Positions 9,642-40,681 of a stretch of 64,000 bases of DNA are shown one piece after another. The stretch lies in contig NZ_CP009282.1 of assembly GCF_000758605.1 (NCBI RefSeq), forward strand, positions 3,658,001 to 3,722,000. Reading direction: 5' to 3'. Both the position numbers and the translations under genes were made by a program. The stretch comes from Paenibacillus sp. FSL R5-0912. Lineage in GTDB: Bacteria; Bacillota; Bacilli; Paenibacillales; Paenibacillaceae. The notes below the pieces were generated by a model. That model ran no database searches. It was not told where the DNA came from and saw nothing but the letters and a program-made list of their open reading frames with translations. Position 1 is the stretch's first letter, and every line of letters starts with the position of its first letter.

Positions 9642-10519
9642 ATACCATACTTGAAATGACATGGAAGGAAATGCTGCGTAAAAAGGTGATGCTGCTAACT
9701 CTGCTGCTCACGTTTGTCTTTCTGATCGCCTTCTGGTTTGTGGCCGATACGGTTGGAAAGAATGAGCCTGGGGCAGGGTCTATACATAACGGGAGTGAGT
9801 TGTTCACACGATTTACGAACGGCGCCTTTATTCTTAGTCTGGGATACTTCTTCGGCGCCTTTGTAATCGCCTTTCTGGCGATCTTCAGCTCGTTCTCGGT
9901 AATTGCGGGGGAAGCGGAACAGGGAGTCATGCAGGCATTGCTGCCCCGGCCGCTGCCGCGCTGGAAATGGTATGCCGGACGCTGGCTCGGTTTCGTAACA
10001 CTGGGTGTAGTTTATGCCTTCATTCTATTTCTGGCTATCCTGCTGATCACAAATGTCCATGCGAGCGTTCCCAGAGATCCGGCAGCACTAGTGAAGTCAT
10101 TTTTGCTGTTTGCTTCTGTGGTTCCATTGTTAATCTCCGTATCCATGCTGGGCTCAGGGATTTTCTCGGCGCTGGGTAACGGTGTGTTCATGACGATGCT
10201 CTATGGGGCAGGGTTTCTGGGAGGAATGCTTGATAAGCTAAGCGGTTCGCTGCGGCTGGAGAATGACGCGCTGAATGTGCTGCATAATCTGACCGGGATC
10301 ATGTCGATGCTGATGCCGGCAGATGCCTTGCAGCGCAGAATGACCGCCGAGCTGTTCAGTCTGAAGGATATCAGCGGTCTGGTTTCCCTAAGTAATGGCG
10401 GACTTAGCATCATTAATATCAGCGCGTACCCGTCAGTGTCATTCATCGTATATGCTGTGTGTTATACCGTAATTGTATTTGTAATAGGAATTCTGCATTT
10501 TCAGCGCAAGGATTTATAA
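9638..10519 (+). CDS. ABC-2 type permease
   Basis: 293 residues, hydrophobic, with about six membrane helices starting at LLTLLLTFVFLIAFWFV and ending with VYAVCYTVIVFVIGILHF before FQRKDL. The middle carries EAEQGVMQALLPRPLPRW, the cytoplasmic motif usual in ABC-2 permeases after the second helix. It starts 4 bp inside the ATPase gene and is its probable partner. It is the last gene of the ECF sigma operon. Substrate unknown. Confidence 0.87.
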   Translation: MNTILEMTWKEMLRKKVMLLTLLLTFVFLIAFWFVADTVGKNEPGAGSIHNGSELFTRFTNGAFILSLGYFFGAFVIAFLAIFSSFSVIAGEAEQGVMQALLPRPLPRWKWYAGRWLGFVTLGVVYAFILFLAILLITNVHASVPRDPAALVKSFLLFASVVPLLISVSMLGSGIFSALGNGVFMTMLYGAGFLGGMLDKLSGSLRLENDALNVLHNLTGIMSMLMPADALQRRMTAELFSLKDISGLVSLSNGGLSIINISAYPSVSFIVYAVCYTVIVFVIGILHFQRKDL

Positions 10520-10529
10520 GACAAATAAA

Positions 10530-10573
10530 CAGCGCCCTCAAAGTTTCCTGGTTAAGGAACTTCAGGGGCGCTG
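10530..10573 (-). terminator. terminator hairpin between convergent genes
   Basis: CAGCGCCCTCAAAGTTTCC and GGAACTTCAGGGGCGCTG form a long imperfect stem. On the minus strand TTTATTTG follows, so it best serves the HxlR gene. It may also stop the rightward operon, though there is no T tract on that side. Confidence 0.7.
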
Positions 10574-10593
10574 CTTCGCATGCAGGCCGGCAA

Positions 10594-10920
10594 TCATTTG
10601 GTCACGCCAATCTCAATCCAATCCGTAGACCAGTTACCGATTTCACCAAGAATGGGAGCCAGTGCCGTGCCTTTGTCGGTCAACGAATACTCAATACGCA
10701 CAGGCATTTCAGGATACACCGTGCGCTGAATGATGCCTTCGTTCTCCATTTCCTTCAGCCGGTCGGATAATACTTTGCCGCTTAGATTGGATAAGCAATG
10801 CTCGATTTCCCCGAATCGCCGCGGACCATCCATCAGGACGAATACGATCAGTGCAACCCACCGTTTACTAAGCACATCGACCGCTTTCTCGAAGCGTGGA
10901 CACATTTCGAAATTGTTCAT
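10594..10920 (-). CDS. HxlR-family winged-helix regulator
   Basis: 108 residues from the ATG at 10920, which has GAGGTG 6 bp upstream; an in-frame ATG at 10941 lies before that site. Seen: the HxlR core CPRFEKAVDVLSKRWVALIV, then RFGEIEHCL and LSDRLKEMENEGII of the winged helix, ending in IGNWSTDWIE. The Cys at residue 7 occupies the place of the redox-sensing Cys of YodB/HypR-type members, so a thiol-stress response is possible but not shown. The nearest divergent gene is the GTP cyclohydrolase gene more than 300 bp away, so its target is uncertain. Confidence 0.9.
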   Translation of the reverse strand: MNNFEMCPRFEKAVDVLSKRWVALIVFVLMDGPRRFGEIEHCLSNLSGKVLSDRLKEMENEGIIQRTVYPEMPVRIEYSLTDKGTALAPILGEIGNWSTDWIEIGVTK

Positions 10921-26575: not shown

Positions 26576-28075
26576 ATGACAAACGCCTCAAATAAAGGAA
26601 ACAGTGCAGCAGTGGAAGTACCGTTCTCGCTGAAAGCCATTATTCCGCCGTTAATGGCTATTATCGTCGGCATGATTATGGTTATCTTGGACAGCACTGC
26701 TGTAAACGTTGCGGTACCGAATCTGGTGCAGTATTTCGCAACAGATCTTAAGACCGTTCAGTGGGCCATTACGGGGTATACACTGGCGCTGGCTGCTGTA
26801 ATTCCGCTGGCTGGCTACATGACTGACCGCTTCGGGTCCAAGCAAGTCTTTCTAACGACTATTGTTATGTTTGTATTGGGGTCCGTTCTTTGTTCGGTTG
26901 CCCAGACCTCGACGCAGCTGGTCATCTTCCGTGTCATACAAGGTCTTGGCGGCGGGATGGTAGCTCCAATCGGTATGGCAATGGTCTTCAGACTGGCTCC
27001 GGCAGAGCGCAGAGGTTCTATTATGGGGATGCTCGGTGTTCCCATGCTGCTGGCTCCGGCACTTGGTCCGATCCTCTCCGGCTGGCTGGTAGAATACGTG
27101 AGCTGGCACTGGATCTTCCTGATCAACCTGCCTATCGGTATCGTTGGTATCATTCTGGGAGTTAAATATCTGCCTGTTACCGAGAAGAAGGGCAAAGCGC
27201 ATCTGGATATCTTCGGTATCATTCTGGCTCCGCTTGCGTTCTCCATGCTTGCTTATGGCGTGAATCAAGGCGGAGGTGAAAGCTGGACCTCGACGGGGGC
27301 TCTTGTAGGTTTGTCTGTCGGTGGTGTGGCGCTGGTGCTGTTCGTCATCGCTGAGCTGCTGCAGAAGCATCCGTTGCTGGAGCTGCGTGTCTTCCGTTCA
27401 TCGGACTTCACACGCGGCATTATCCTATCCTGGGTGACCCAGGCTGCCTTATTCGGTTCCATGCTGTTCGTTCCGCTGTATCTGCAGCAGATCCGGAACT
27501 ACACACCGCTTGAGACAGGTCTCATTCTACTTCCGCAGGCGCTGGCATCCGGTATCGGTATGCCGGTGGGGGGCCGCTTATTCGATAAGATTGGTGCACG
27601 CCCATTGCTCTTTGTCGGACTCAGTATCATTTCCACTGCACTGTTCCTGTTGTCCGGTGTTACAGTAGACACCAGTCTTCCCGTTATCATGGGCTGTCTT
27701 GCTATGATGGGTCTGGGAATGGGCTTGTCGATGATGCCGGTCAACACCCATGTTCTGAACTCCGCGCCGCGTGAATGGGTTGGCCGGGTGACTCCGCTTA
27801 CCGCCGCAGCCCAGCAGGTTGTTGTATCCTTCGCGGTTGCCGGTATGACCGGATACTTAACCAGCCAGATTACCGTTCATATGGGTGAGATGGCTGCCGG
27901 AAGCAACCCGCTTGTCGCCGCTGTTCAGGGTTTCAATGATGTATTCTTCCTCTCCGCCTGCATCGCGCTGGCCGGAGTGGTCATCAGTCTGATTCTGCGC
28001 AAACCGAAGACAGCCGGTTCCGCCGGAACTCCGGAAGGCCAGCAAGCGGACGCTGCTGTAATGATGGGACATTAA
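26576..28075 (+). CDS. DHA2-type MFS multidrug efflux transporter
   Basis: 499 residues from ATG 26576 behind GGAG; a GTG at 26564 is in frame. Seen: 14 membrane helices, DSTAVNVAVPNLVQYF, TVQWAITGYTLALAAVIPLAGYMTDRFGSKQVFL (DHA2 motifs D1 and A), GPILSGWL and VTPLTAAAQQVV. It is a paralog of the transporter at 20607, controlled by a different TetR type. A terminator closes the pair. Confidence 0.92.
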   Translation: MTNASNKGNSAAVEVPFSLKAIIPPLMAIIVGMIMVILDSTAVNVAVPNLVQYFATDLKTVQWAITGYTLALAAVIPLAGYMTDRFGSKQVFLTTIVMFVLGSVLCSVAQTSTQLVIFRVIQGLGGGMVAPIGMAMVFRLAPAERRGSIMGMLGVPMLLAPALGPILSGWLVEYVSWHWIFLINLPIGIVGIILGVKYLPVTEKKGKAHLDIFGIILAPLAFSMLAYGVNQGGGESWTSTGALVGLSVGGVALVLFVIAELLQKHPLLELRVFRSSDFTRGIILSWVTQAALFGSMLFVPLYLQQIRNYTPLETGLILLPQALASGIGMPVGGRLFDKIGARPLLFVGLSIISTALFLLSGVTVDTSLPVIMGCLAMMGLGMGLSMMPVNTHVLNSAPREWVGRVTPLTAAAQQVVVSFAVAGMTGYLTSQITVHMGEMAAGSNPLVAAVQGFNDVFFLSACIALAGVVISLILRKPKTAGSAGTPEGQQADAAVMMGH

Positions 28076-28093
28076 TTCATATCTTGGGTTTAC

Positions 28094-28127
28094 GACCGTC
28101 GCAGCATATCGCTGCGGCGGTTTTTTC
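28094..28127 (+). terminator. terminator after the second DHA2 transporter gene
   Basis: ACCGTCGCAGC pairs with GCTGCGGCGGT, followed by six T. Confidence 0.9.
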
Positions 28128-28160
28128 TGATTTCACCCCCGTTGTTGCGATTACGATTCG

Positions 28161-28188
28161 AAATCCTGAACAAAATACAACATTTCTC
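28161..28188 (+). repeat. 28-bp repeat, copy 2
   Basis: AAATCCTGAACAAAATACAA plus CATTTCTC, matching 22168-22195 at 26 of 28 positions. Shortly after, GTTGTACTACGTACAAC (28224-28240 region) is a further palindrome of the GTTGTAC type seen elsewhere in the window. Confidence 0.75.
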
Positions 28189-28324
28189 CCAACCCTACGG
28201 GTATCTCGGTATCAGAGTTGTACTACGTACAACATTTATGTCCTTACAGCAAGAACTTAAGTAATTCAATTGCTGTCATCTTATAGTACGGCTATACAGA
28301 AGGGCGAAAGGAGGAATTAGAGGT

Positions 28325-28396
28325 ATGCTGTTCTTCTTCCTGGAATCGAAGACAGAGAGAGCAGATCAGAGCCATCATCGGGAGGCTATAGATTAG
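28325..28396 (+). CDS. candidate 23-residue small protein
   Basis: An ATG at 28325 follows AAAGGAGGAATTAGAGGT and opens 23 codons (MLFFFLESKTERADQSHHRE, then AID) before TAG, overlapping the end of the convergent EamA gene. A strong ribosome binding site with no other gene behind it is the only support. It may be the 5' remnant of a lost gene. Confidence 0.3.
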   Translation: MLFFFLESKTERADQSHHREAID

Positions 28397-29288
28397 CCCG
28401 CCGTTTCTTAAGCGTTCTTGCCGGGAAAGGGGCAAAGTGCAATCTGCCGAGCAGCTCGGAAGCTATAATGCCCAGCAGGACAAGGGCAGCGCCGGTGTAA
28501 CCTTGCAGCGAAAGCTGCTCATGTGCGAACCAGTAGCCGAAGAAAGCGGCAAAGACCGGTTCCAGGGCGAAGATTAATCCGGTGCGGGTCGGCGTTGTGT
28601 ATTTCTGGGCAACGGGCTGCAGGATGAAGCCGCAGGCGCTGCAGAAAATTCCGAGTGCGAGGATGGCGATCCAGCCGGGAAGAGTCGAAGGCAGTGCGGG
28701 AGTCTCGAAGACAGCTGACAGAATCAGGGCATATCCCCCGGCGAAGCCCAACTGGAGAATGCCGATATTCAGCGAATCGCTGGATTGTACAGCCCTGCTG
28801 GTGACTAGGATCTGTACGGCGTAGAATACAGCAGCCAGAATACAGAGCAGATCACCGGGCCGGATATGCAGCGAGCCGTTCAGGGTGAGCAGCCCGATAC
28901 CGGCGATGGCCAGAATGGCTCCGAAGATCTGAGGAGGTGCGACTTTCTTTTTGAAGATTAGCACATCCAGCAGCGGTACAAACACAACGGTCAAGGCGAC
29001 GAGGAAGCCGGCGTTTGAGGTCGTAGTGGTCTTCAGTCCGAAGGTGATACAGGTGAACACGCCGAGTAGAAGGAAGCCAAGCAGAGCTCCATATTTCAAT
29101 GTTCTGGCGTCCACACCGCGCAGCCGTTTGTGGAACAGCAGAGCCGCCAGAATGAAGGCCAGCCCGAAACGCAGTGCAATCAGATTGAATTCTCCCAGTG
29201 TGCCGAGTCCCATTTTCATGAACAGGTAGGAGGAACCCCAGAACATCGTTACTACTATGAGCATCAGCTCGGCCTTTAGCGGCTTCAT
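28386..29288 (-). CDS. EamA/DMT-family transporter
   Basis: 300 residues. Seen: ten predicted membrane helices in two EamA repeats, the first starting LMLIVVTMFWGSSYLFMKMGLG and the second from DLLCILAAVFYAVQILVTSRAV, with the typical GLIFALEPVFAAFFGYW and a basic C-terminal tail. Such proteins export metabolites or amino acids. It is divergent from a LysR-family gene with a 119-bp spacer, the usual arrangement for a regulator and its transporter target. Substrate unknown. Confidence 0.9.
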   Translation of the reverse strand: MKPLKAELMLIVVTMFWGSSYLFMKMGLGTLGEFNLIALRFGLAFILAALLFHKRLRGVDARTLKYGALLGFLLLGVFTCITFGLKTTTTSNAGFLVALTVVFVPLLDVLIFKKKVAPPQIFGAILAIAGIGLLTLNGSLHIRPGDLLCILAAVFYAVQILVTSRAVQSSDSLNIGILQLGFAGGYALILSAVFETPALPSTLPGWIAILALGIFCSACGFILQPVAQKYTTPTRTGLIFALEPVFAAFFGYWFAHEQLSLQGYTGAALVLLGIIASELLGRLHFAPFPARTLKKRRANL

Positions 29289-29407
29289 TCCATCATCATC
29301 CTTCTTTATTCCAAGTGATTATAGTATAATACGCTCAAATACATAAGGTAACTGAATGTTTATCATATGAAACATGAGGAAATCTCATGCAAACTTGGAG
29401 GACAGCG

Positions 29408-30289
29408 ATGAGCATAGTCAAATACGAAGTGTTCCTCAAAGTCGTTGAACTGGGCAGTCTGACCAAAGCCGCCGAGGTGCTGGGCTTCACCCAATCCGGT
29501 ATAAGCCATACCATCAGCAGTCTGGAGAGCGAATTCGGATTCCCGCTGCTTGTGAGGAGCCGTTCCGGTGTCAAGCTGACAGTCAATGGGGAGCAGGTTA
29601 TTCCGCCTATCCGCGAAATCCTCAAATGGAATGAGCAGCTGAAGCAGCAGGTGGCCGATATTCATGGTCTGGAGACAGGGACCATAACAATAGGCACCTT
29701 CACAAGTGTATCCGTTCATTGGCTGCCGGACATGATCAAACAATTCCGGAGAGAGTACCCTTACATTGAATTCAAGCTGATGGAGGGCGGGTATCTGGAG
29801 ATTGAGCAGTGGATTGAGGCCGGGGTGGTCGATTGTGGCTTCCTCTCATTGCCTACCAGGGAGAAATTCGAGGTGTTTCCGCTCAAGCAGGACCGGATGC
29901 TGGCCATTCTTCCGTTAGACCACCCTCTGAGCAAAGCCCCGTATATGCCGCTGGCCCAGATCGCCTACGAGGATTTCATCATTCCGAGGCCCGGCTCGGA
30001 CTATGATGTGCAGCGGGTGCTGGAGAAAGCGGGGATTAAGCCGAACATCAAATTCTCGGCCGGAGATGATTATGCGATTATAGCTATGGTGGAAAAAGGC
30101 CTGGGTATCAGCATCCTCCCGGAGCTGGTTACCCGCTTCCAGCAAGAGCATGTGGCGATGCTGGAGCTGGAGGAGTGCAGCTTCCGTTCTCTGGGCATTG
30201 CGGTCAGCTCAATGAAATATGCTTCTCCTGCAACGAAGCGGTTCCTGCAGCATGTGCAGAATTGGTCGCCTGGCCAAGAAGGGATTTGA
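29408..30289 (+). CDS. LysR-family transcriptional regulator
   Basis: 293 residues from ATG 29408 behind GGAGG; a further in-frame ATG at 29387 lacks a site. Seen: LysR winged helix (YEVFLKVVELGSLTKAAEVLGFTQSGISHTISSLE) and an effector-binding domain with GTITIGTFTSVSVHWLPDMI and DYAIIAMVEKGLGISILPE. It probably controls the divergent EamA gene. A paralogous C-terminal fragment lies at 36205. Its 3' terminator forms part of the first copy of the 109-bp inverted element. Confidence 0.92.
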   Translation: MSIVKYEVFLKVVELGSLTKAAEVLGFTQSGISHTISSLESEFGFPLLVRSRSGVKLTVNGEQVIPPIREILKWNEQLKQQVADIHGLETGTITIGTFTSVSVHWLPDMIKQFRREYPYIEFKLMEGGYLEIEQWIEAGVVDCGFLSLPTREKFEVFPLKQDRMLAILPLDHPLSKAPYMPLAQIAYEDFIIPRPGSDYDVQRVLEKAGIKPNIKFSAGDDYAIIAMVEKGLGISILPELVTRFQQEHVAMLELEECSFRSLGIAVSSMKYASPATKRFLQHVQNWSPGQEGI

Positions 30290-30298
30290 CGGGGAAGT

Positions 30299-30407
30299 AA
30301 AAGCAGCGATTCTCCAATAACGGGAATCGCTGCTTTTTTAACGTTCGAAGCTTTTGAGAAATTTGAGAACCTAACTTGTCAGTAGAATATCTACTATTGG
30401 GACAGCC
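30299..30407. repeat. 109-bp inverted element, left copy
   Basis: Runs from AAAAGCAGCGATTCTCC to GGGACAGCC. Its reverse complement matches 37559-37667 with about 12 substitutions and two small indels. One end holds a terminator hairpin (30302-30338), and the other end reads GGCTGTCCCAATAGTAGA on the minus strand, like the terminal inverted repeats of several insertion sequences. It ends 1 bp before the stop codon of the next, leftward gene. Confidence 0.85.
30302..30342 (+). terminator. terminator after the LysR gene
   Basis: GCAGCGATTCTCC pairs with GGGAATCGCTGC, followed by six T. It forms the inner part of the left 109-bp element. Confidence 0.85.
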
Positions 30408-30408
30408 T

Positions 30409-31728
30409 CTACTTGGTTTTGCTTAATTGGCGCCCTTCTTTGTCGAGAAACAACAGCTCGTAGTATTTTTTCGGCCGGCCTTTACTGTTGTCACGTTTCT
30501 CAAATACCGTTTGGACGTATTTTTTTTCTTCAATTTTGTTAAGGATACGGTTTGCACCTTTGACGGTCATGGACAGGCACCCAGCAACATCCTCAGAGGA
30601 TAATTTATTGGTTCTCATAATTTCTGCGTAGGACATGATTTTCTGCAAATTGATGTTGTTTATTCCAATATTTTTGGCCAATGCGATGATTTCCGGGTCC
30701 CCCTGTTCAGAGAACTGAATGACATTCATGCTCCGCATTGGGCCGATAACCTGCTGATCCTCGTTAATAAAAAAGCTGCAACTGCCCGTAAAGGCTTTGG
30801 CCTGTCTGTAAGCTTTGGTGGCGTTCTCGTTAGCTTGAAAATACTCATGTCCTGAGCCCCACCCGATCTTCACCTTGTAGCTTACGTACTCTTCCAGATA
30901 CTCCAGCAGGGAGCAGTTCTGCGCGCCAGAGGTAATTTTCATGAAATTTCCGTAGGTGGTGTATAGTCTGACAAAGCCTTCCGAAATTTGGGCTGTGTCG
31001 GCAAGATTCACGCTGCGCAGAAACCTGCCGACAAGAATTTTCAGCTCATGAAGCTGCTCTTCGGATGGCGGCTGTGCCGTTTTGGTCGATACACATGCTA
31101 CAACTGCCCTCTGGCTCTTAAGTTTGAGGATGGTAATTTCGTTGATGATCTCTCTTAGGGTTTCTTTAACATCTTCCAAAGTGGGCCGGATCAAGATATA
31201 TCTGACTCCGTGCTTTTGGAGCTCTGGAACGAAGTGGCCGAACGCCGTAATGGACAGGTCAATCTTCTTGTCTTCCCACAGCGTGATATGGTTCTCCAGC
31301 ATGGTCTCCACCCGTTCGAGCAGATCTTCGCCGTCAATGGGCTTTCCATCATGAGTCAGGTATTGTTGGAATTCACTGAAAGAATCAATGATATACGCAT
31401 AATCCACATAGATCCTCGATATATCAAGCCCTGGTTCTGTGACCAGCAGCCGGAAAAGTTCTCTATACAGAAGATTCTCATTATCCTGCAAAATGTGAAT
31501 AGGGACCTTCTCATCCAGGCAATCCTTATCTATTGACTCATAAAGCATCCTGCCGCTGACCACAAATCCATCCACTGAACCTAAGTTCTGCAGATATAGG
31601 TCTGTTGTTTCCCTGAAGTTGCTGACAGTAAGGAACCGGAACTGGCATAAGGGCCGCATTTCTTCTTCAATAGCGCGGAAATAATCCATATGGGTCTCTG
31701 GCGTGATAATACCCAGCTTGATTTTCAT
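30409..31728 (-). CDS. transcriptional regulator of the amidohydrolase/crotonase operon (GGDEF-like and winged-helix)
   Basis: 439 residues; AAAGGA upstream of the ATG. Not assigned to a named family. Seen: an N-terminal alpha/beta domain about 1-200 (IKLGIITPETHMDYF; GFVVSGRMLYESI; PIHILQDNENLLYREL) resembling receptor-like sensor folds; a middle domain about 205-330 with IGWGSGHEYFQANENATKAYRQAK, like the degenerate GGDEF domains of CdaR/PucR regulators; and a C-terminal winged helix about 350-435 (TNKLSSEDVAGCLSMTVKGANRILNKIEEKKYVQ). Divergent from the catabolic operon with operator-like repeats between, so it probably regulates it in response to its substrate. Confidence 0.75.
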   Translation of the reverse strand: MKIKLGIITPETHMDYFRAIEEEMRPLCQFRFLTVSNFRETTDLYLQNLGSVDGFVVSGRMLYESIDKDCLDEKVPIHILQDNENLLYRELFRLLVTEPGLDISRIYVDYAYIIDSFSEFQQYLTHDGKPIDGEDLLERVETMLENHITLWEDKKIDLSITAFGHFVPELQKHGVRYILIRPTLEDVKETLREIINEITILKLKSQRAVVACVSTKTAQPPSEEQLHELKILVGRFLRSVNLADTAQISEGFVRLYTTYGNFMKITSGAQNCSLLEYLEEYVSYKVKIGWGSGHEYFQANENATKAYRQAKAFTGSCSFFINEDQQVIGPMRSMNVIQFSEQGDPEIIALAKNIGINNINLQKIMSYAEIMRTNKLSSEDVAGCLSMTVKGANRILNKIEEKKYVQTVFEKRDNSKGRPKKYYELLFLDKEGRQLSKTK

Positions 31729-31766
31729 AGTAGATTCCTTTCATAAACAGTTCAATCAAAAGAGTT

Positions 31767-31787
31767 ATATCACAATAAATGTGATAT
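31767..31787. promoter_or_regulatory. 21-bp palindrome in the divergent regulatory region
   Basis: ATATCACA, a 5-base centre ATAAA, then TGTGATAT: a perfect inverted repeat, 40 bp upstream of the leftward regulator gene. A likely binding site for a dimeric regulator, possibly involved in autoregulation. Confidence 0.65.
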
Positions 31788-31814
31788 TACAATGTTCCGG
31801 CAGCCTTTAAAATA

Positions 31815-31890
31815 ATGTTCTTAAAATGTCTATAAATATCTTGACAGCGAAGGAATTTAAAAGTACGATGATTATGTTCTTAAAAAGTCT
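31815..31890 (+). promoter_or_regulatory. promoter of the catabolic operon flanked by 17-bp direct repeats
   Basis: TTGACA (31841-31846) and TACGAT (31864-31869) are spaced by 17 bp. ATGTTCTTAAAATGTCT (31815-31831) ends 9 bp before the -35, and ATGTTCTTAAAAAGTCT (31874-31890) starts 4 bp after the -10; they differ at one base. Repeats placed this way suggest a bound regulator that loops or blocks the promoter. Confidence 0.7.
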
Positions 31891-31940
31891 TAAAATGTGA
31901 AGGAGGACATTTAAACTCTGTACTTACATTCATTCAATTT

Positions 31941-33179
31941 ATGTTGCGGGAGATGTTCATTGTGATTGAAGAAGCTGGAGACTATTTGAGTATGGCTCAT
32001 CAGCTGCAGGACAAATTGGTCATGTTCAGGCATCATCTTCATGCGATTCCGGAGCTTGATTTAAGTTTGCCCAGGACAACTGCTTATGTAAAAGAGGTGT
32101 TGGAGTCGATGGGTCTTAAGCCCGCTCCAGTAGGGGAATCAGGTCTAACGGTTACGATTGGCGGGCAGCATGACGGGAAGGTGGTTCTTATCCGTGCAGA
32201 TATGGACGCTTTGCCTATTGCAGAGGAAACGGAGCTTTCTTACGCGTCGTTGAACGGGAACATGCATGCTTGTGGTCATGACATGCATACTTCCATGCTG
32301 CTGGGAGCGGCGGAGATCCTGAAGGCTAACGAAGAGCAGCTTCGCGGGACGGTCAAGCTTATGTTTCAGCCGGGTGAAGAGACGCTGCATGGGGCAAAAA
32401 TGATGCTTGAGAGCGGGATTCTCGACACTCCTAAAGTGGATGCAGCTATGATGCTTCACGTGTTGACCGGAATGCCACTTCCTATCGGACAATTTGTAGT
32501 GCCTGAGGAAGGTGGAGCGATTTCTGCTTCTTCGGATTGGTTCGAAATCATCATCCGCGGAAGGGGTTCACATGGCGCAATGCCCGAGGCCGCAGTGGAC
32601 CCCTTAAATGTGGCTGCTCATCTTCATCTGGCGCTGCAGGGTATACTTAGCCGTGAAATTTCGCCAATTGAACATGCAGTCCTTACCATCGGCGTGATGG
32701 AAGGCGGAAGTACAAACAATGTGATTCCCGATACGGCCAGATTGAAAGGCAGTGTACGCACATTTAACGCCGCACTGCGGGATAAAATGGAGATCCGTAT
32801 CCGCGAAATTACAGCAGGTATCGGAGAAACTTTTCAGGCAAAGCTGGATGTGATCTATTCGAGGGGTTGTCCTGAAGTGAAAACGGATGGCGGGCTTAAT
32901 GAGCAAATGAGGATTTCGATTGAAAATACCTTTGGTGACGGTTCCTACATTGGTATAACTGAGCTGGTACCCGGCGGTAAATTAATGGGATCAGAAGACT
33001 TCGCCTTTGTCTCACAGGCGGTGCCAAGTACCACAGTGTTTCTTAACGCAGGCAATATCGAAGATGGTTATAGTTACCCTGTACACCATCCGAAGACGAT
33101 GTTCTCGGATGAGGTGCTTCATAGAGGGGCTGCGGCTTATGCAGCATTTGCCAGAGACTGGCTTGAAAATAACGGTTAA
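31941..33179 (+). CDS. M20-family amidohydrolase
   Basis: 412 residues from ATG 31941; GTG 31962 behind CGGGAG and ATG 31992 are alternatives, so the N-terminus is uncertain. Seen: HHLHAIPELD; the metal site HACGHDMHT; catalytic PGEE; a dimerisation lid domain (GRGSHGAMPEAAVDPLNVA); GGSTNNVIPDTA; GSEDFAFV and VHHPKT. Known: M20D enzymes of this type (IAA-amino acid, hippurate and N-acetyl-amino-acid hydrolases) cut an acyl amide from an amino acid. First gene of the operon with two crotonase-fold hydrolases and serine dehydratase. Its substrate is probably an N-acylated amino acid or conjugate. Confidence 0.88.
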   Translation: MLREMFIVIEEAGDYLSMAHQLQDKLVMFRHHLHAIPELDLSLPRTTAYVKEVLESMGLKPAPVGESGLTVTIGGQHDGKVVLIRADMDALPIAEETELSYASLNGNMHACGHDMHTSMLLGAAEILKANEEQLRGTVKLMFQPGEETLHGAKMMLESGILDTPKVDAAMMLHVLTGMPLPIGQFVVPEEGGAISASSDWFEIIIRGRGSHGAMPEAAVDPLNVAAHLHLALQGILSREISPIEHAVLTIGVMEGGSTNNVIPDTARLKGSVRTFNAALRDKMEIRIREITAGIGETFQAKLDVIYSRGCPEVKTDGGLNEQMRISIENTFGDGSYIGITELVPGGKLMGSEDFAFVSQAVPSTTVFLNAGNIEDGYSYPVHHPKTMFSDEVLHRGAAAYAAFARDWLENNG

Positions 33180-33208
33180 GCTCTAAACCAAACTTAGGAG
33201 GAATTACA

Positions 33209-34048
33209 ATGACAGAGAGACGTATGATTGGACCCACCAAATTCGAAGAGTACTCGGAGAAATACAAGGAATTCCTGTTAATGACCCGCCGTGACGGAAT
33301 CATTGAAGTGCGTCTTCACACGGGCGGAGGTTCGTACACGCACAATTGGGAAGCTCATACCGCCTGGTCTCATGCCTGGTCAGATATCGGCCGTGACCCT
33401 GAGAACGAAGTCATGATTATTACGGGAACTGGGGATAAATGGTTGATTGGCGACCCAGAGGTCTGGAATACTAAATTTATGGATTGGCCGAAGCAAAAGA
33501 AGCTCGAACAGTATCATGAATCGCTGAGACTGCTTGAGAACCTGATCTTCTGCATTGACATCCCGACCATCGGGGCAATCAATGGTCCGGGAACGCACTG
33601 TGAACTCGCGACTCTCTGTGACATTACCATTTGTACCGAAGACGCCGACTTCTTTGATCCGCATTATCTGGGAGGCACACCTCCCGGAGATGGAATGCTG
33701 CTCACACTGCAGAACATGATCGGTTTCAAAAAAGCAGCCTACTACGCATACACCGGCAAGAATATCAATGGTCAAACCGCATTGGACCTGGGCATTGTTA
33801 GTGAAGTTCTGCCCCGGGAACAGCTTCTGCCCCGCGCATGGGAGCTTGCCGAGATGATTATGCAGGCACCGCGTTCAACGAGACATCTGTCGCACTCTAT
33901 CATCTCCCGTCCATGGAAGCAGGCTATGGTCGCCGATCAGGGATTCCAGCTTGCCCATCAAATGTACGACATGGCCATTGATGAAGAAGGTGCTCTGGAG
34001 CGCCTGAAGAAAATGCAAGGGCGCCTTATGGGCAAAGATGTTCAATAG
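33209..34048 (+). CDS. crotonase-fold hydrolase, 6-oxocamphor-hydrolase-like (copy 1)
   Basis: 279 residues; TAGGAGGA before the ATG. Seen: FEEYSEKYK near the start, HTGG, DPENEVMIITGTGDKW, IPTIGAINGPGTH, FFDPHYLGGTPPGDG and LPRAWELAEMI. This run of motifs follows Rhodococcus 6-oxocamphor hydrolase (OCH), as I recall its sequence, more closely than enoyl-CoA hydratases. OCH catalytic residues His45, His122, His145 and Asp154 have probable counterparts at His50, His130, His152 and Asp161. Known: OCH cleaves a C-C bond in cyclic beta-diketones without a CoA thioester. A CoA substrate cannot be excluded by sequence alone. Confidence 0.82.
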   Translation: MTERRMIGPTKFEEYSEKYKEFLLMTRRDGIIEVRLHTGGGSYTHNWEAHTAWSHAWSDIGRDPENEVMIITGTGDKWLIGDPEVWNTKFMDWPKQKKLEQYHESLRLLENLIFCIDIPTIGAINGPGTHCELATLCDITICTEDADFFDPHYLGGTPPGDGMLLTLQNMIGFKKAAYYAYTGKNINGQTALDLGIVSEVLPREQLLPRAWELAEMIMQAPRSTRHLSHSIISRPWKQAMVADQGFQLAHQMYDMAIDEEGALERLKKMQGRLMGKDVQ

Positions 34049-34874
34049 AGAGATGACGGGACCTACACGATTCGAAGAATATTCGAAGAAGTACAAGGAC
34101 TTGTTCATCATGACCCGCCGCGGCGGCATACTCGAAGTGCGTATGCACACCGGCGGGGAACCGCTTCAATTTGACTGGTCGGTACAGACTGCCTACGGTA
34201 ATGTATGGTCAGATGTGGGCCGCGATCCTGAGAATGAGGTGATGATCCTTACAGGCACAGGAGAGCTGTGGCAGACAGGCAATCCTGAAGTCTGGAACAC
34301 CAAATTCATGGATTGGCCGAATCGCCGGAAGCTGGAGATGTACCATGAATCGCTCAGAATGATTGAGAATATGGTTCATTGCCTTGATATCCCCACCATT
34401 GGGGTGATCAATGGCACAGGCTCACACTGGCAGCTGGGGACGCTGTGTGATATTACCATTTGTGCAGAAGACACTGTGTTCTTCGATGCCCATTACCTGG
34501 GAGGAGTACCGCCCGGGGATGGAATCGTCTTGGCACTTCAACAACTGCTGGGAACCAAGAAAGCGGCAATTCACGCATACACGGGGATGAACATTGATGC
34601 TCAAGAGGCACTAGACCTCGGTCTGGTCAATGAGGTGCTGCCTCGTGAACAGCTTCTTCCACGCGCGTGGCAGCTGGCAGAAAGAATCATGCAGGCACCC
34701 CGCTCTGTCAGACATCTTACTCATTCGATTGTGTCGCACCCGTGGAAAAAAGCTCTTGCAAATGATCAGGGTCTACAGATTACTCACCAATTGGTTGACA
34801 TGGCCATTGATGAAGAGGGGATTCATGAGCGCCTGATGAAGCTCAAGGAACGTTTTCAGGGGAAGGGTCAATGA
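34038..34874 (+). CDS. crotonase-fold hydrolase, 6-oxocamphor-hydrolase-like (copy 2)
   Basis: 278 residues, starting 11 bp inside copy 1. Seen: the same domain, aligning from residue 1 (MFNREMTGPTRFEEY against MTERRMIGPTKFEEY) and about 60% identical by eye. It keeps His130, His152 and Asp161, but the counterpart of OCH His45 is Gln50 (DWSVQT against NWEAHT). Start at 34038 is supported by this alignment. Tandem duplication with divergence suggests either a changed substrate, a partner subunit in a mixed oligomer, or partial loss of function. Confidence 0.82.
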   Translation: MFNREMTGPTRFEEYSKKYKDLFIMTRRGGILEVRMHTGGEPLQFDWSVQTAYGNVWSDVGRDPENEVMILTGTGELWQTGNPEVWNTKFMDWPNRRKLEMYHESLRMIENMVHCLDIPTIGVINGTGSHWQLGTLCDITICAEDTVFFDAHYLGGVPPGDGIVLALQQLLGTKKAAIHAYTGMNIDAQEALDLGLVNEVLPREQLLPRAWQLAERIMQAPRSVRHLTHSIVSHPWKKALANDQGLQITHQLVDMAIDEEGIHERLMKLKERFQGKGQ

Positions 34875-34934
34875 GCCTCAAGCCGCAGGATGAAGAGCTT
34901 AAGCCAAAGACAACTGAGAAGGGATAAGGGTGCT

Positions 34935-36137
34935 ATGAGATCGTTGACTGAGCTATTTAAGATTGGCAGTGGACCGTCCAGCTCCCATACTATGGGGCCG
35001 GAGAAGGCGGCCAGGATCTTCAAATCAGAGAATGAAGACGCAGACCAATTCAAGGCGTTAATTTATGGTTCCCTTGCCAAAACAGGCAAAGGCCATTTGA
35101 CGGACAAGGCTATTCTTAGAGCACTTTCACCCGTTCCGGCGGAGGTTGAATTTGTTCCACAGGCAGATTTTGTTCTGCCACATCCCAATACCATGGACTT
35201 GTTCGCTTACAAAGACGGGCGGCAAACCTCATCTATGCGTGTTGTCAGTATTGGCGGCGGGGACATCGTTATTGAGGGGCGGGAGGAGATGCAAACGCCC
35301 GATGTCTACCCGGAGAACTCCTTTGCAGCAATCAGTACCTTGTGTAAAGCGAATCATATCTCCCTAAGCGATTACGTTGAGCAGCGTGAAGGCGAACAGA
35401 TCTGGGATTTCCTCCAAGGAATCTGGGAAGCGATGAAGCGTTCGATCGACGAAGGGCTGTCTGTCACAGGTATTCTGGAGGGCGGTCTTGAAGTCGAACG
35501 CAAGGCGAAATATCTGTATCATCAGCGGGATATGGATGAGAGCCCGGAGACGAGGGAGAACAGGATCGTCAGCGCATACGCTTTCGCCGTCAACGAACAG
35601 AATGCCGCCGCCGGCACTGTCGTAACGGCCCCGACCTGCGGGGCCAGCGGTGTCGTGCCCGCCTCGCTACGTTATATGCAGGAGAAGATGCAGGTTCCGG
35701 ATGAACAGATCCTCCGGGCTCTAGCGGTCGGCGGGCTCATTGGCAATCTGGTCAAGCAGAACGCGTCCATCAGCGGCGCTCAGTGCGGCTGCCAGGCGGA
35801 GGTCGGCACGGCTTGCTCTATGGCAGCGGCTGCACTGGCTGAATTGTCTGGTATGGAGATCGACCAGATTGAGTATGCGGCGGAGGTTGCTATGGAACAC
35901 CACTTGGGGTTAACCTGTGATCCGATTAACGGACTGGTTCAAATCCCTTGCATTGAGCGGAACGCTGTCGGTGCGATGCGGGCGATCAATGCGCTGAGCC
36001 TGGCCAAATTCTTGTCTGGTACCCGTAAGATATCCTTTGATCTAGTTGTACAGACCATGTATGAGACAGGCCTGGATATGAACAGCAGGTACCGTGAAAC
36101 TTCAGAGGGCGGGCTTGCTAAGCTCTACAAAGCATAA
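34935..36137 (+). CDS. sdaA: L-serine ammonia-lyase, single-chain iron-sulfur type
   Basis: 400 residues from ATG 34935 (AAGGG upstream); the frame continues to 34890. Seen: LFKIGSGPSSSHTMGPEKAA and GSLAKTGKGHLTDKAI of the beta part; then the alpha part with iron-sulfur Cys in TAPTCGASG, AQCGCQAEVGTACSM and GLTCDPINGLVQIPCIERN. Known: it deaminates L-serine to pyruvate and ammonia. Placement at the end of the amidohydrolase operon points to release of serine (or a close analogue) from the substrate. It is a fused version; B. subtilis has separate sdaAA and sdaAB subunits. Confidence 0.92.
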   Translation: MRSLTELFKIGSGPSSSHTMGPEKAARIFKSENEDADQFKALIYGSLAKTGKGHLTDKAILRALSPVPAEVEFVPQADFVLPHPNTMDLFAYKDGRQTSSMRVVSIGGGDIVIEGREEMQTPDVYPENSFAAISTLCKANHISLSDYVEQREGEQIWDFLQGIWEAMKRSIDEGLSVTGILEGGLEVERKAKYLYHQRDMDESPETRENRIVSAYAFAVNEQNAAAGTVVTAPTCGASGVVPASLRYMQEKMQVPDEQILRALAVGGLIGNLVKQNASISGAQCGCQAEVGTACSMAAAALAELSGMEIDQIEYAAEVAMEHHLGLTCDPINGLVQIPCIERNAVGAMRAINALSLAKFLSGTRKISFDLVVQTMYETGLDMNSRYRETSEGGLAKLYKA

Positions 36138-36160
36138 TTTCATACTTGTGAAAAATGACG

Positions 36161-36205
36161 AAGAACGTCCCATGCTGCAGGTTGGCAGAAGGGACGTTCT
36201 TTTTG
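36161..36205 (+). terminator. terminator after sdaA
   Basis: AAGAACGTCCC pairs with GGGACGTTCTT, followed by TTT; it ends the catabolic operon. Confidence 0.88.
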
Positions 36206-36309
36206 ATATATTAGGATTCACTGTCCATTCGATGAAATACGTTTCGAGGCAACGGAAGCGATTCATCCAATCTGTGCAGAGCTGGTCATCTGCGCAAGAA
36301 GCAATTTGA
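36205..36309 (+). pseudogene. C-terminal remnant of a LysR-family gene
   Basis: The frame reads DILGFTVHSMKYVSRQRKRF then IQSVQSWSSAQEAI and stop. It aligns with the last 34 residues of the LysR protein at 29408 (RSLGIAVSSMKYASPATKRF, IQ/LQ HVQNWSPGQEGI), about 60% identical, with the same stop region TTTGACGG. The rest of the gene is missing; the fragment begins right at the sdaA terminator. Confidence 0.8.
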
Positions 36310-36379
36310 CGGAGCGCCGCTTGGATGAGAAAATGTATGCGTGTACATGGAGTAGTGAATTTAGTAGAGGAGGCTTCAA

Positions 36380-37540
36380 ATGAAACAGCTACGGATCGGA
36401 ATGATAGGTTATAAGTTCATGGGCAAAGCCCACAGTAATGCCTACCGCAGTCTGCCCATGTTCTTCCCCCAGGCACTCAAACCGCAAATGTCTGTCATTT
36501 GCGGACGGAATGAAGAAGCGCTGCAGGAGGCCGCCGGCCAGCTGGGCTGGTCGGAAGGTGTGACGGACTGGAAGGAGCTGGTCTCCCGCAGCGATATTGA
36601 TCTAATCGACATCAATGCGCCGAGCAATGCCCATAAGGAGATTGCGCTGGCGGCGGCTGCTGCTGGCAAGCATATTTTCTGCGAGAAGCCGCTGGCGCTG
36701 AATCTGGCAGATTCGCGAGAAATGCTCCAGGCTGCAGAGGCGGCCGGCATTGTTCATATGGTTGGCTTCAATTACCGTTTCTCCCCGGCGGTCAGGCTGG
36801 CGAAACGGCTGATTGAGAGCGGGCGGCTCGGAAAGGTCTATCATTTCCGTGCCTGGTTCCTGCAGGACTGGATTCTCGATCCTGAATTCCCGCTGGTCTG
36901 GCGTCTGCAGAAGGAGATTGCCGGCTCAGGATCGCATGGGGATCTGGGGGCGCATCTGATTGATCTGGCCCATTTCCTGGTAGGCGATGTGCAGGAGGTC
37001 ATTGGCATGAGTGAGACATTCGTCAAGGAACGGCCGCTGGCAACGGAGATGACAGGTCTTAGCGCCCGGGCCAGCAAAGATGCACCGCGCGGCGCAGTAA
37101 CGGTGGATGATGCTACTTTGTTCCTGGCCCGTTTTGCAAACGGCGCATTGGGCAGCTTTGAGGCGACACGGTTCGCTGCCGGGCATCGTTCGACCAATTC
37201 TTTTGAGATCAATGGCAGTCTGGGCAGTGTGAAATTCGACTTCGAGCGGATGAACGAACTGGAGGTCTATCTGACCTCGGATGACGAAGATGTGCAGGGC
37301 TTCCGGAGAGTGCTCGCCACCGATCCTGCACATGACTATGCTGAAGCCTGGTGGCCGCCGGGCCATACCATTGGATTTGAGCACACATTCATTCACGAGA
37401 TGCTGGAGCTGTCGAATGCGATTGCCGAAGGCCGTCAGCCTGAGCCGAATTTCCGTGACGGTGTGAAATGCCAGGCTGTACTGGAAGCTGTGGAACGTTC
37501 GATTGAAGAGCGGCGCTGGGTTCCGATATCTGAAATGTAG
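36380..37540 (+). CDS. Gfo/Idh/MocA-family oxidoreductase
   Basis: 386 residues; AGAGGAGG upstream. Seen: Rossmann start LRIGMIGYKFMGKAHSNAY, the signature FCEKPLAL with conserved Lys, NYRFSPAVRLAKRLIESGRLG, and HLIDLAHFLVGDV in the C-terminal domain. Known: these use NAD(P) to oxidise or reduce sugars, inositols or their derivatives. It is separated from the catabolic operon by a terminator and the LysR remnant, and from the next gene by the right 109-bp element, so it is probably a single transcript. Substrate unknown. Confidence 0.88.
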   Translation: MKQLRIGMIGYKFMGKAHSNAYRSLPMFFPQALKPQMSVICGRNEEALQEAAGQLGWSEGVTDWKELVSRSDIDLIDINAPSNAHKEIALAAAAAGKHIFCEKPLALNLADSREMLQAAEAAGIVHMVGFNYRFSPAVRLAKRLIESGRLGKVYHFRAWFLQDWILDPEFPLVWRLQKEIAGSGSHGDLGAHLIDLAHFLVGDVQEVIGMSETFVKERPLATEMTGLSARASKDAPRGAVTVDDATLFLARFANGALGSFEATRFAAGHRSTNSFEINGSLGSVKFDFERMNELEVYLTSDDEDVQGFRRVLATDPAHDYAEAWWPPGHTIGFEHTFIHEMLELSNAIAEGRQPEPNFRDGVKCQAVLEAVERSIEERRWVPISEM

Positions 37541-37558
37541 ATACTACAATGTATAAGG

Positions 37559-37667
37559 GGCTATCCCAAAAGTAGACATTCTACTGACAAGTCAGATTCT
37601 CATATTTCTCAAAAGCTTCAAACGTCAAAAAGCAGTGATTCTCCCGTTACTGGAGAATCGCTGTTTT
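37559..37667. repeat. 109-bp inverted element, right copy
   Basis: Starts GGCTATCCCAAAAGTAGACA and ends with a hairpin (AGCAGTGATTCTCC...GGAGAATCGCTG) and TTTT. It is about 87% identical to the reverse complement of 30299-30407. The hairpin can act as a terminator for the oxidoreductase gene and, on the other strand, for the AraC gene. Confidence 0.85.
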
Positions 37668-37713
37668 CTGTTATGGGCGTATTGCTGCTTGCTTCAATTT
37701 TAAAAACAGAGGG

Positions 37714-38583
37714 CTATTTACGTACCATAGAGGGTGTCAGGCCTTTGTACTGCTTATAGAGCTTCGTGAAATAATTGGGATTGTCACAGCCGACTCTGCC
37801 GGAAATCTCTGTAATGCTGAAGCCGGTCTCCTTAAGCAGCCGCTCGGCTTCATCCATCCGGCACAGGTTCACATAGTCGATGAAGGTGCGTCCTGTCAGC
37901 TTCTTGAAGGTTTTGCAGAAATGGAAAGCGTTCAGATTGACAAAGCGGGCAGCACGCTCGACCGACATTTTCTGATCGACATGTGTTTCCAGATATTCCA
38001 GCAACGGCTTGAAGCGTTCGCGGTTGATAGAATGGCGTTCGCTCTGCTGCGCGGGAAATGTACGGGACAGGTGTGTGAAGAATAAGTGGAGCTGGTTCTT
38101 CACCACAAGCTGAAAAGCCGGTTGTTTTGCCTGCACTTCCTCAATAATCCGCTCAAGCAAGGGATAATACGAGGCGCATTCCGGGTTGTGGACCACTGGC
38201 ATGACAGGAAACTGATACCGGTTGCTAAGATAAGGTGCCACATATTGCTCATGCTGGGAATCCTGATTGCGGTCCTTGAACAATGAGGCATGAAAAACAA
38301 TTGAGACATAGGAAACATCCCCGCTATCCAGGCTATAGCCGACATGCAGCCCGCCGGAAGGTACCATGATCACGTCTCCGGGGCCGGCCTCATAAGGTTT
38401 GCTGTCCACATGAAAGATCGCCCGGCCTTCACGCATGACAATAATCTCGAAATGCTCATGCCAGTGCAGGAACAGGATATTCTGTTGGGGCTTGGCATCC
38501 CTGCAATGGTTGAAGAATAAGCGGAATGGATAGGTCTTCTCCTCGAGCGCAGGATATTCCTTCAGTTCTTTCGGATATGTCAT
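37714..38583 (-). CDS. AraC-family regulator
   Basis: 289 residues from ATG 38583 with GGGAG about 12 bp upstream; a GTG at 38601 is in frame. Seen: an N-terminal cupin domain (LHWHEHFEIIVMREG, then AGPGDVIMVPSGGLHVG) that would bind a sugar, and a C-terminal pair of helix-turn-helix motifs (SVERAARFVNLNAFHFCKTFKKLTG; ITEISGRVGCDNPNYFTKLYKQYKG). It is divergent from the isomerase and oxidoreductase genes and probably controls them. Confidence 0.92.
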   Translation of the reverse strand: MTYPKELKEYPALEEKTYPFRLFFNHCRDAKPQQNILFLHWHEHFEIIVMREGRAIFHVDSKPYEAGPGDVIMVPSGGLHVGYSLDSGDVSYVSIVFHASLFKDRNQDSQHEQYVAPYLSNRYQFPVMPVVHNPECASYYPLLERIIEEVQAKQPAFQLVVKNQLHLFFTHLSRTFPAQQSERHSINRERFKPLLEYLETHVDQKMSVERAARFVNLNAFHFCKTFKKLTGRTFIDYVNLCRMDEAERLLKETGFSITEISGRVGCDNPNYFTKLYKQYKGLTPSMVRK

Positions 38584-38707
38584 AATGGCTTCAACTCCCA
38601 CAAGATTCAGCTAGTTTAACGCAAGATAAGAAGAGATTTTGCCCGAAATGAGGGATATACTTGGGTTATTGAACTAACTATAAACCAATATTGGAGTGGT
38701 ATACAAG

Positions 38708-39595
38708 ATGCAGGATACAATGAGAATCGGGACACTGGTGGGAGGCGGAGATGCACTAAGAGTGATTCCGCAAATTATAGGACACGGATTCGAATCATTC
38801 AGCCTGACCTTCTGGCAGACGACGGGAAATACGGATCTGACAGAAACTGCTGCACGGGTGCGTGAATTGGCCGCGGAGCATGATTTCGTGATCTCTTCTG
38901 TAGGGATATTCGGGAATCCGCTTACAGGCACTGGGGATAACTCCGATGCTCTGGCTAGCTGGGAACGGCTGATCGATCATGCCCATTTGTTTGGAAGCGA
39001 TATGGTCTCCGGCTTTACCGGACGTCTGCCTGGGGTTTCAATCGACGAATCCATTCCGAAATTCGCAGAGGTGTTCGGTGAGCTCTCCAAAAGAGCTGCG
39101 GACCGCGGTGTCAGAATCGCCTTTGAGAACTGTTCCATGGATGGAAACTGGCAATCCGGGGACTGGAATATTGCCCATAACCCTACAGCTTGGGAGAAAA
39201 TGTTCAATGCGGTGGATGCCGATAACCTGGGTCTGGAATGGGAGCCCTGCCACCAGATGGTGCAGCTAATTGATCCGATTCCGCAGCTGCGCAAATGGAC
39301 GGACAAAATTTTTCACGTGCACGGCAAGGACGCTACGATTGCCTGGGATATTATCAAGGAATACGGAATTCACGGACCTAAGCCGTATGTGTGGCACCGG
39401 ACACCGGGCTTTGGAGATACGAACTGGACTGATGTAATCTCAATACTGCGGCAGGCCGGGTACACAGGAACGATTGATATCGAAGGCTGGCATGATCCCG
39501 TTTATCGTGATGACCTGGAAATGACAGGCCAGGTTCATGCGCTCCATTATTTGAAAAAATGCCGGGGCGGAAGCTTCGTGCCGAATCCGGTCTAA
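38708..39595 (+). CDS. sugar phosphate isomerase/epimerase (TIM-barrel, AP endonuclease 2 fold)
   Basis: 295 residues from ATG 38708 behind TTGGAGTGG; a GTG at 38696 is in frame. Seen: a TIM barrel with metal-ligand patterns GVRIAFENCSMDG, LGLEWEPCHQM, IFHVHGKDATI and TIDIEGWHDP, as in xylose-isomerase-like epimerases and inosose dehydratases (IolE-like). It is the first gene after the divergent AraC regulator, and a second oxidoreductase follows 21 bp later, so the two enzymes probably act in one sugar or inositol pathway. Confidence 0.87.
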   Translation: MQDTMRIGTLVGGGDALRVIPQIIGHGFESFSLTFWQTTGNTDLTETAARVRELAAEHDFVISSVGIFGNPLTGTGDNSDALASWERLIDHAHLFGSDMVSGFTGRLPGVSIDESIPKFAEVFGELSKRAADRGVRIAFENCSMDGNWQSGDWNIAHNPTAWEKMFNAVDADNLGLEWEPCHQMVQLIDPIPQLRKWTDKIFHVHGKDATIAWDIIKEYGIHGPKPYVWHRTPGFGDTNWTDVISILRQAGYTGTIDIEGWHDPVYRDDLEMTGQVHALHYLKKCRGGSFVPNPV

Positions 39596-39616
39596 TCCAG
39601 AAAGCGGGGAACACCT

Positions 39617-40681
39617 ATGACAGCAGAGTATCGTGTAGTTGTAGCGGGCTGTGGAGCCATGGCTAATGAATGGATCAGTTATGCGGTGAAGCATACTGAA
39701 ATTGAAATCGTCGGACTCGTAGACATCCGGGTGGAATCCGCGCAGACCATGGGTGAGAAGCATGGACTGACCTGCCCGGTATTTACAGATATATCACAGG
39801 CAATTGAAGCTACAGCGGCTAATCTGGTGTTCGATATCACCGTGCCTTCGAGCCATTTCAGTATTGCCAGTAAGGCACTGGAAGCCGGATGTCATGTCTT
39901 CACCGAGAAGCCGCTGGCAGAAACGATGGAGCAATGTAATGAAATCGTTAACATGGCCGGACGTACCGGGCTGAGCCATGCCGTAATGCAGAACCGCAGG
40001 TATGATCCGCATATCCGCTCTTTGCGCGGGTTAATCACCTCGGGAGCAATAGGGAGAACGGGTTCCATAAGCGCAAGCTTCTTTCTGGCCCCGCATTTCG
40101 GCGGATTCCGGGAAGCGATGGACAGCCCGCTGCTCCTGGACATGGCCATCCATACCTTCGATCAGGCCCGCTTTATCAGCGGCGCCGATCCTGTAAGTGT
40201 GTACTGCCAGGAATTTAACCCTCCCGGATCATGGTATGAAGGGAATGCGGCAGCCATCTGTATCTTCGAAATGTCAGACGGCTCCGTATTCTGTTATCAG
40301 GGCTCGTGGTGTGCGGAAGGCGCGCCTACGTCCTGGGAAGCGTCATGGCGGGTCCAGGGGGAACGGGGGGCAGCGATCTGGGATGGCCGGGATATGCCGT
40401 ATGCCGAGATTATCGGTGGCGGTGAAGCTTCCGGACAGTTCCTCAATGAATATGAGCGGGTAGAAGGGCCGGCTGTGCAGATGAAGGAGACCTTCCATCA
40501 GGGCTGTCTTGAAGAGATGTTCCGCTCACTAGCGGAGCAGCGTCCCGCCGAGACTGACTGTCGCGACAACCGCTACAGTATGGCGATGGTGCTTGGCGCT
40601 TTGGAGAGTACGCGGACAGGCAGCAAGCTGAACATTGCGGAATTTATCCGGAATGCCGAGCGGAATGTGCCTGATAAATAA
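39617..40681 (+). CDS. Gfo/Idh/MocA-family oxidoreductase
   Basis: 354 residues; GCGGGGA upstream. Seen: YRVVVAGCGAMANEWISYAV (NAD-binding; Ala in place of one Gly), VFDITVPSSHFSIASKALEAG, FTEKPLAETMEQCN and DMAIHTFDQARFISGA. It lies in the AraC-controlled operon with the isomerase. It differs from the oxidoreductase at 36380 in length and sequence, so the two are not recent duplicates. A perfect terminator follows. Confidence 0.88.
   Translation: MTAEYRVVVAGCGAMANEWISYAVKHTEIEIVGLVDIRVESAQTMGEKHGLTCPVFTDISQAIEATAANLVFDITVPSSHFSIASKALEAGCHVFTEKPLAETMEQCNEIVNMAGRTGLSHAVMQNRRYDPHIRSLRGLITSGAIGRTGSISASFFLAPHFGGFREAMDSPLLLDMAIHTFDQARFISGADPVSVYCQEFNPPGSWYEGNAAAICIFEMSDGSVFCYQGSWCAEGAPTSWEASWRVQGERGAAIWDGRDMPYAEIIGGGEASGQFLNEYERVEGPAVQMKETFHQGCLEEMFRSLAEQRPAETDCRDNRYSMAMVLGALESTRTGSKLNIAEFIRNAERNVPDK

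Follow-up and report, generated by a model that had tools for sequence, protein, structure and literature searches.

In a 64,000-nucleotide stretch of the genome of Paenibacillus sp. FSL R5-0912 (the window), two copies of a 109-bp element stand in opposite orientation at the ends of a block of genes that includes a catabolic cassette encoding a regulator-like protein, an M20 amidohydrolase, two crotonase-fold hydrolases and an L-serine dehydratase. The origin of these two elements, and their relation to the cassette and to the gene ends beside which they lie, are the subject of this analysis. An earlier note on the same DNA had described the pair and the gene content of the interval, down to the relic of a LysR gene, and this description agrees with what we find. 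The copies, at 30299-30407 (plus strand) and 37559-37667 (minus strand), are 109 bp each and 87% identical by BLAST; all the genes except that of the regulator-like protein have profile matches, and the relic has an alignment tested against shuffled sequence. A repeat search of positions 28000-40000 returned a single inverted pair, with arms at 30335-30410 and 37556-37631 (76 nt, 88%). The sequence GGCTRTCCCAAWAGTAGA, with up to three mismatches allowed, occurs twice in the window where 0.09 occurrences are expected, and two were reached in none of 100 shuffles. A covariance model of the element matches only the two copies in the region, besides hitting the same palindromes weakly in reverse. 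The right copy is longer than 109 bp, extending to about 37698 and keeping about 31 bp of the end of a transposase gene, of which the left copy keeps none. The features of the locus, elements first, are as follows.

30299..30407, plus strand: left element, solo right (3′) end of an IS1182-family insertion sequence (IS); covariance model R1, 108.1 bits
30299-30337, plus strand: hairpin of the left element, from the hairpin fold
30390-30407, plus strand: right inverted repeat of the left element, oriented toward the regulator gene
37553..37698, minus strand: right element, solo right (3′) end of the same IS family as the left; R1, 115.6 bits
37553-37576, minus strand: right inverted repeat of the right element
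37629-37667, minus strand: hairpin of the right element
37668-37698, minus strand: remnant of the transposase C-terminus in the right element
29387..30289, plus strand: LysR-type regulator, convergent neighbour of the left element (PF03466, PF00126)
30409..31728, minus strand: 439-residue regulator-like protein, no Pfam or NCBIfam match
31941..33179, plus strand: M20 amidohydrolase of the cassette (TIGR01891, 308 bits, cut-off 153.75)
33209..34048, plus strand: crotonase-fold hydrolase A (PF00378; 1o8u, E 2e-44)
34038..34874, plus strand: crotonase-fold hydrolase B, paralogue of A (PF00378)
34890..36137, plus strand: L-serine dehydratase, sda (TIGR00720, 400.6 bits, cut-off 345.1)
36160..36203, plus strand: terminator hairpin of sda, predicted from the sequence
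36229..36312, plus strand: relic of a LysR 3′ end, 63/85 identical to the tail at 30208-30292
36380..37540, plus strand: GFO/IDH/MocA oxidoreductase (GFO1), convergent neighbour of the right element (PF01408, PF02894, PF22725)
37714..38601, minus strand: AraC-type regulator, the other convergent neighbour of the right element (PF12833, PF02311)

The hairpin end of the elements folds with -19.7 to -25.1 kcal/mol (z -5.8 to -8.3) on both strands, in keeping with the terminator hairpin that had been proposed for it, and the right-end hairpin is bordered on both sides by A- and T-runs. By folding, the elements have the features of an intrinsic terminator, a stable stem and then a T-run. A simple terminator scan lists the right hairpin (minus strand) and misses the left one, and the terminator-like sites that it finds in the region are not in excess over shuffles (12 vs 10.7). 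An Rfam scan of the window gave no match.

The elements as ends of IS1182-family insertion sequences

A BLAST search of the strain's own genome (one contig, 7.72 Mb) with the element gave six matches, and at two of these (L004 and L006) the element directly continues the C-terminal codons of a PF13751 transposase, the stop codon lying in the loop of the hairpin. The covariance model R1, built from 15 copies and used with a full-length threshold of 45 bits, found nine full-length copies of the right end above that score in the genome. Three of these have long transposase remnants and one has about 40 codons, while for the window copies and three others no transposase was detected in the neighbourhood. 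Complete copies are present in a related genome, G114, which has three of 1,964 bp with an open frame of 552 codons. The transposase of one of them (L321) matches NF033551 (IS1182) with 451.5 bits against a cut-off of 270, and PF13751, PF05598 and PF01609 also exceed their cut-offs. The complete copies have terminal inverted repeats at both ends, GGGGCTGTCCCAAAAG on the left and CTTTTGGGACAGCC on the right. A complete IS in the genus is thus about 1.96 kb long, with a hairpin at its left end and, towards the right, a second hairpin that holds the transposase stop codon within its loop and is followed by the right inverted repeat.

Compared with the 3′ end of a degraded IS in the relative G028, the left window element shows 92% identity and the right element 88% over 144 bp. 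Since the same sequence ends the complete IS copies, we identify the 109-bp element as the right end of an IS1182-family IS and not as a miniature inverted-repeat transposable element (MITE). Solo insertion-sequence ends were among the possibilities raised in the earlier note, which had also advised a search for full insertion sequences with the same ends. The intact 1,964-bp relatives in G114, together with the transposase remnant at the right copy, bear the suggestion out, the IS-like terminus being the right inverted repeat. The repeated terminators that the note had offered as another possibility also agree, by prediction, with what these ends do. As in the IS1182 family generally, the transposase of the complete Paenibacillus copies matches NF033551, PF13751 and PF05598; unlike members of the family, the window copies are without transposase and have one inverted repeat only. 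No transposase match was found within 1.5 kb on either side of them and no left IS end in the window, and they are not complete mobile elements.

A MITE-like unit moving on its own would share with the window copies that they are short, repeated and have one IS-like terminus, but the hairpin side is without a second inverted repeat and the inner boundary varies among copies, which keep 0, about 31 or about 75 bp of transposase sequence. Young copies with two common boundaries at unrelated sites, which would favour such a unit, were not seen here, and we consider it very improbable. Even less credible is that these are ordinary repeated terminators unrelated to insertion sequences. Their gene-end position and their predicted bidirectional fold would suit this and stand as described; however, complete IS copies end in the same sequence, and the lack of any tie to insertion sequences is contradicted by the attached right inverted repeat and, at the right copy, by the transposase codons, which refute it. 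The genome also has six further PF13751 copies (L035-L040), with open frames of 529-548 codons, which belong to another branch of the transposase superfamily and are apparently recent.

The elements and the history of the cassette

The cassette was surveyed in 100 genomes of the genus, the strain's own included. The full cassette is present in 14 others and most of the genus is without it. Ten relatives have it in the window's arrangement, with LysR on one side and GFO1 on the other, and the element is absent from all ten. An eleventh, G092, has the cassette beside LysR, with GFO1 not found in the stretch, and again the element is absent. In G028, G015 and G031 the cassette lies between an MFS gene and EamA, likewise without elements. 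Neither BLAST (E 1e-3) at the cassette loci of the 14 relatives nor model R1 at the relatives' cassette loci (25 sources, 439,551 bases) found the element. Because the cassette loci of relatives carry no element, it is likely that the elements arrived once the cassette was in place; it would also seem likely that they played no part in moving it and that its spread is unconnected with them.

The arrangement could call to mind a composite transposon, in which two inverted IS1182 copies formerly carried the cassette as a unit and their inner ends remain. The right ends face inward, as expected of an inverted composite, the dS values given below point to horizontal spread of the cassette, and IS1272 is reported to have mobilised a neighbouring gene as TnSha1 (PMC4923244). 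However, the bounded interval takes in GFO1, a backbone gene of the genus, and the same gene order in the ten relatives without the element largely refutes such a transposon, as does the occurrence of the cassette elsewhere in three relatives, also without elements. We hold it to be hardly tenable. The IS pair and the cassette do not occur or move as a unit in the genomes compared, 14 relatives having the cassette without the elements. The suggestion of the earlier note that the elements framed or mobilised the block is therefore not borne out by the ten relatives with the same neighbours, nor is that of an inversion, no inverted interval being found among these ten. The note had also held that synteny of the cassette in all relatives would speak against a mobile block; the ten relatives largely bear this out, though not completely, since in three the cassette is beside EamA and the majority of the genus is without it. 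Where a gene block is bordered by inverted IS-like repeats, these should be taken with caution as a sign of mobility.

The cassette has a history of its own. Between the window and eight relatives the synonymous divergence (dS, by NG86) is 0.16-0.70 in 39 of 40 cassette values, the outlier of 1.93 coming from a gene that looks disrupted. The neighbouring genes give at least 0.80 or saturation in 53 of 55 values, the exceptions being in G119 (LysR 0.43, EamA 0.68), and GFO1, at 0.85-1.33, is at the backbone level. The block from the regulator through M20 and the two crotonases to sda (30409-36203; loci L071-L074, L109-L119, L280-L295) is found at further genomic places, in P. massiliensis, P. 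periandrae, P. antibioticophila and Fontibacillus and, without sda, in Lacrimispora. It is likely a horizontally spread operon. In the placement between MFS and EamA, a 57-bp sda-type terminator stands in direct copies on both sides of the cassette (L072:3240-3296 and 9085-9141; likewise in L071 and L073), and G034, which has no cassette, has one such copy (L074:4233-4293) at what looks like an empty site.

In the window the LysR relic aligns to the tail of the upstream LysR gene with a score of 76 against a shuffle maximum of 29, and possibly represents a scar of the cassette's arrival. In nine relatives tested no score exceeded the shuffle maximum, and a LysR copy is no longer recognisable there. 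The relic and the tail at 30208-30292 form a direct repeat that encloses the cassette.

Probable replacement of native terminator hairpins

The LysR/regulator and GFO1/AraC gaps, in which the two elements lie, separate convergent genes and have native hairpins in relatives. We scored near-perfect stems (at most one mismatch, loop of 3-16), for which shuffles give means of 5.6-6.8 bp. The left gap has a stem of 14-19 bp in nine of ten relatives, and in G113, the tenth, another insert interrupts the hairpin; this count omits G119, where a 1.26-kb insertion fills the gap. The right gap has stems of 11-14 bp in all nine relatives examined, a count that omits G114 with its 3.8-kb gap. In the window the native hairpins are gone and an IS end is in their place at both gaps. 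On the left, the stop codon of the 439-residue regulator-like gene (30409-30411) abuts the IS tip and its final codons are unlike those of relatives.

Such an exchange has a published counterpart. The staphylococcal IS1272 and TnSha1, of the IS1182 family, are reported to insert into hairpins, often transcription terminators and in several cases proven ones, with the hairpin lost and no target duplication (PMC4923244), events that have been named inverted-repeat-replacing transposition (PMC5678879), and IS1182-family IS are reported to be over-represented between convergent genes (PMC9208149). The Paenibacillus IS resembles IS1272/TnSha1 in its insertion at hairpins, with hairpin loss and no target duplication. 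Unlike them, it brings a terminator-like hairpin of its own, which overlaps the stop codon of the transposase, the staphylococcal transposase reportedly having no stop codon inside the IS, and its decayed solo ends remain at gene ends. In position, stem and A- and T-runs on both sides the elements are like intrinsic bidirectional terminators of convergent genes, from which they differ in that the window sequence derives from a transposable element.

The window copies are thus very probably solo right ends of IS1182-family IS that were inserted after the cassette, replaced the native terminators of the convergent genes and are now predicted to stop transcription; it is likely that they took over the stop function of the native hairpins. 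The clearest parallel is at the sda terminator, which is intact in P. massiliensis (L280) and has its place taken by a 952-bp relic of this IS family in P. massiliensis subsp. panacisoli (L281). In this one genome pair 290 of 300 upstream bases are identical, the hairpin is gone where the IS stands and no target duplication is seen, as in replacement of the IS1272 type. At a site first noted in G113, a solo right end is present in G113, G088, G087 and G119, and of the four relatives without it that were tested, G100 and G114 have a native hairpin (0/100 shuffles as stable) and G112 and G115 carry an IS left end in opposite orientation. We read this site as one terminator hit repeatedly. At the own-genome site 6159408 the element is absent in 11 of 11 relatives, and in nine of them the gap is more stably folded than 96 or more of 100 shuffles. 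The flanks of site 4018281 are poorly conserved in 11 relatives and unsuited to comparison.

Gene context was sampled with 39 right ends, the nine of the own genome and 30 taken from a total of 130 in 16 relatives. These lie in 15 convergent and 10 co-directional gaps and in no divergent one, with 11 unclassifiable and three on short contigs; for the own copy at 3034611 the left neighbour gene is 873 bp away. Among 12 classified solo 3′ ends, 10 are convergent and two co-directional, or eight and two of 10 distinct sites, three copies being one orthologous site. Background gaps of at least 80 bp are convergent in 8 of 49 cases (binomial 1.7e-5).

Several points weigh against this reading. At the window sites an exact swap is not apparent, some 20-30 flanking nt being missing along with the native hairpin, and later deletions must therefore be assumed. 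At site 6159408 the strict stem test exceeds all shuffles in only four of 11 relatives, with two ties and five that do not; the folding comparison was run after it, and two of 11 relatives fail that too. Site 2099831 is ambiguous: G119 carries an IS-like hairpin that has no inverted repeat, G111 has a different hairpin, and the remaining relatives have native hairpins whose outer part is like that of the IS. The orientation counts come from a home-made gene caller, 30 of 130 relatives' copies and a small background. Selection on the stem has weak support at best, with seven broken pairs against 11.0 expected (P 0.044) in an alignment fitted to the structure. Finally, the own genome has seven left ends without right ends above 55 bits, six convergent and one unclassified. 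Examples, which are also hairpins, are at 6107903 (L155), 6467846 (L161), 6500985 (L156) and 6893425 (L159). Since unpaired left ends persist, retention is not special to the right end, and an argument from the survival of right ends alone was dropped. That both IS ends are hairpins fits the terminator reading without proving it, and we infer that hairpin function is the reason solo ends persist.

The inexact window junctions would also suit IS copies that landed at random beside old terminators, with the old hairpins deleted later and no hairpin-replacing insertion in the window, an outcome that an IS-rich genome could yield by chance. Against this, both window gaps and further sites ended up alike, L280 and L281 form a clean pair, and the IS1182 family has a published preference for such targets; we regard random landing as unlikely.

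Under replacement of the native terminators, the transposase would recognise a terminator hairpin and swap the IS in, as seen in one near-identical genome pair and as published for IS1272. The hairpin that the IS brings along has A- and T-runs at either side, and with it, to judge from folding and position, the convergent genes would keep a bidirectional stop. Transposase and left end would then decay, stages of which are seen in relatives, while the hairpin stays, presumably under selection. The opposite orientation of the window copies would be an accident of two separate insertions. More tentatively, and with the balance somewhat against it, IS1182-family IS may be agents of terminator turnover in this Paenibacillus group, seeking out and replacing terminator hairpins, supplying a built-in bidirectional terminator that overlaps the transposase stop codon, and then being eroded by the host down to this hairpin, such that a share of gene-end terminators is selected, domesticated transposon DNA. 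No description of solo IS1182 ends as terminators was found in the literature, judged by titles and the beginnings of abstracts. What looked like the border of a mobile cassette would become a history of terminators lost to a transposon and replaced by its part. If the leftover hairpin is under selection, a bacterial IS would be made harmless by carrying a spare of what it breaks, and IS ends would be a source of new terminators.

In G119 (P. tritici) the LysR/regulator gap has a different hairpin instead, together with a gene of about 1 kb that was inserted (L109:3534-4797). Two genomes share, in nearly identical form, an unrelated element of about 105 bp, which lies in the loop of the native hairpin in one (L116:4291-4477) and after the sda terminator in the other (L115, flipped coordinates 10485-10650); its positions mark it as a second hairpin-targeting small repeat, in or beside terminators. 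In several convergent gaps of relatives, short palindromes such as TGTATGCTGTTTTTGGCATACA are repeated in tandem and take up the gap (L113 and L118 in the GFO1/AraC gap, L230-L235).

Of the cassette proteins, the 439-residue regulator-like family has 79 homologues, several labelled transcriptional regulator, and two distant ones have winged-helix domains. The best solved relatives of crotonase-fold hydrolase A are 6-oxocamphor and beta-diketone hydrolases. Because such relatives occur here together with an amidohydrolase and a serine dehydratase, one idea is that the cassette might break down a serine amide carrying a beta-diketone.

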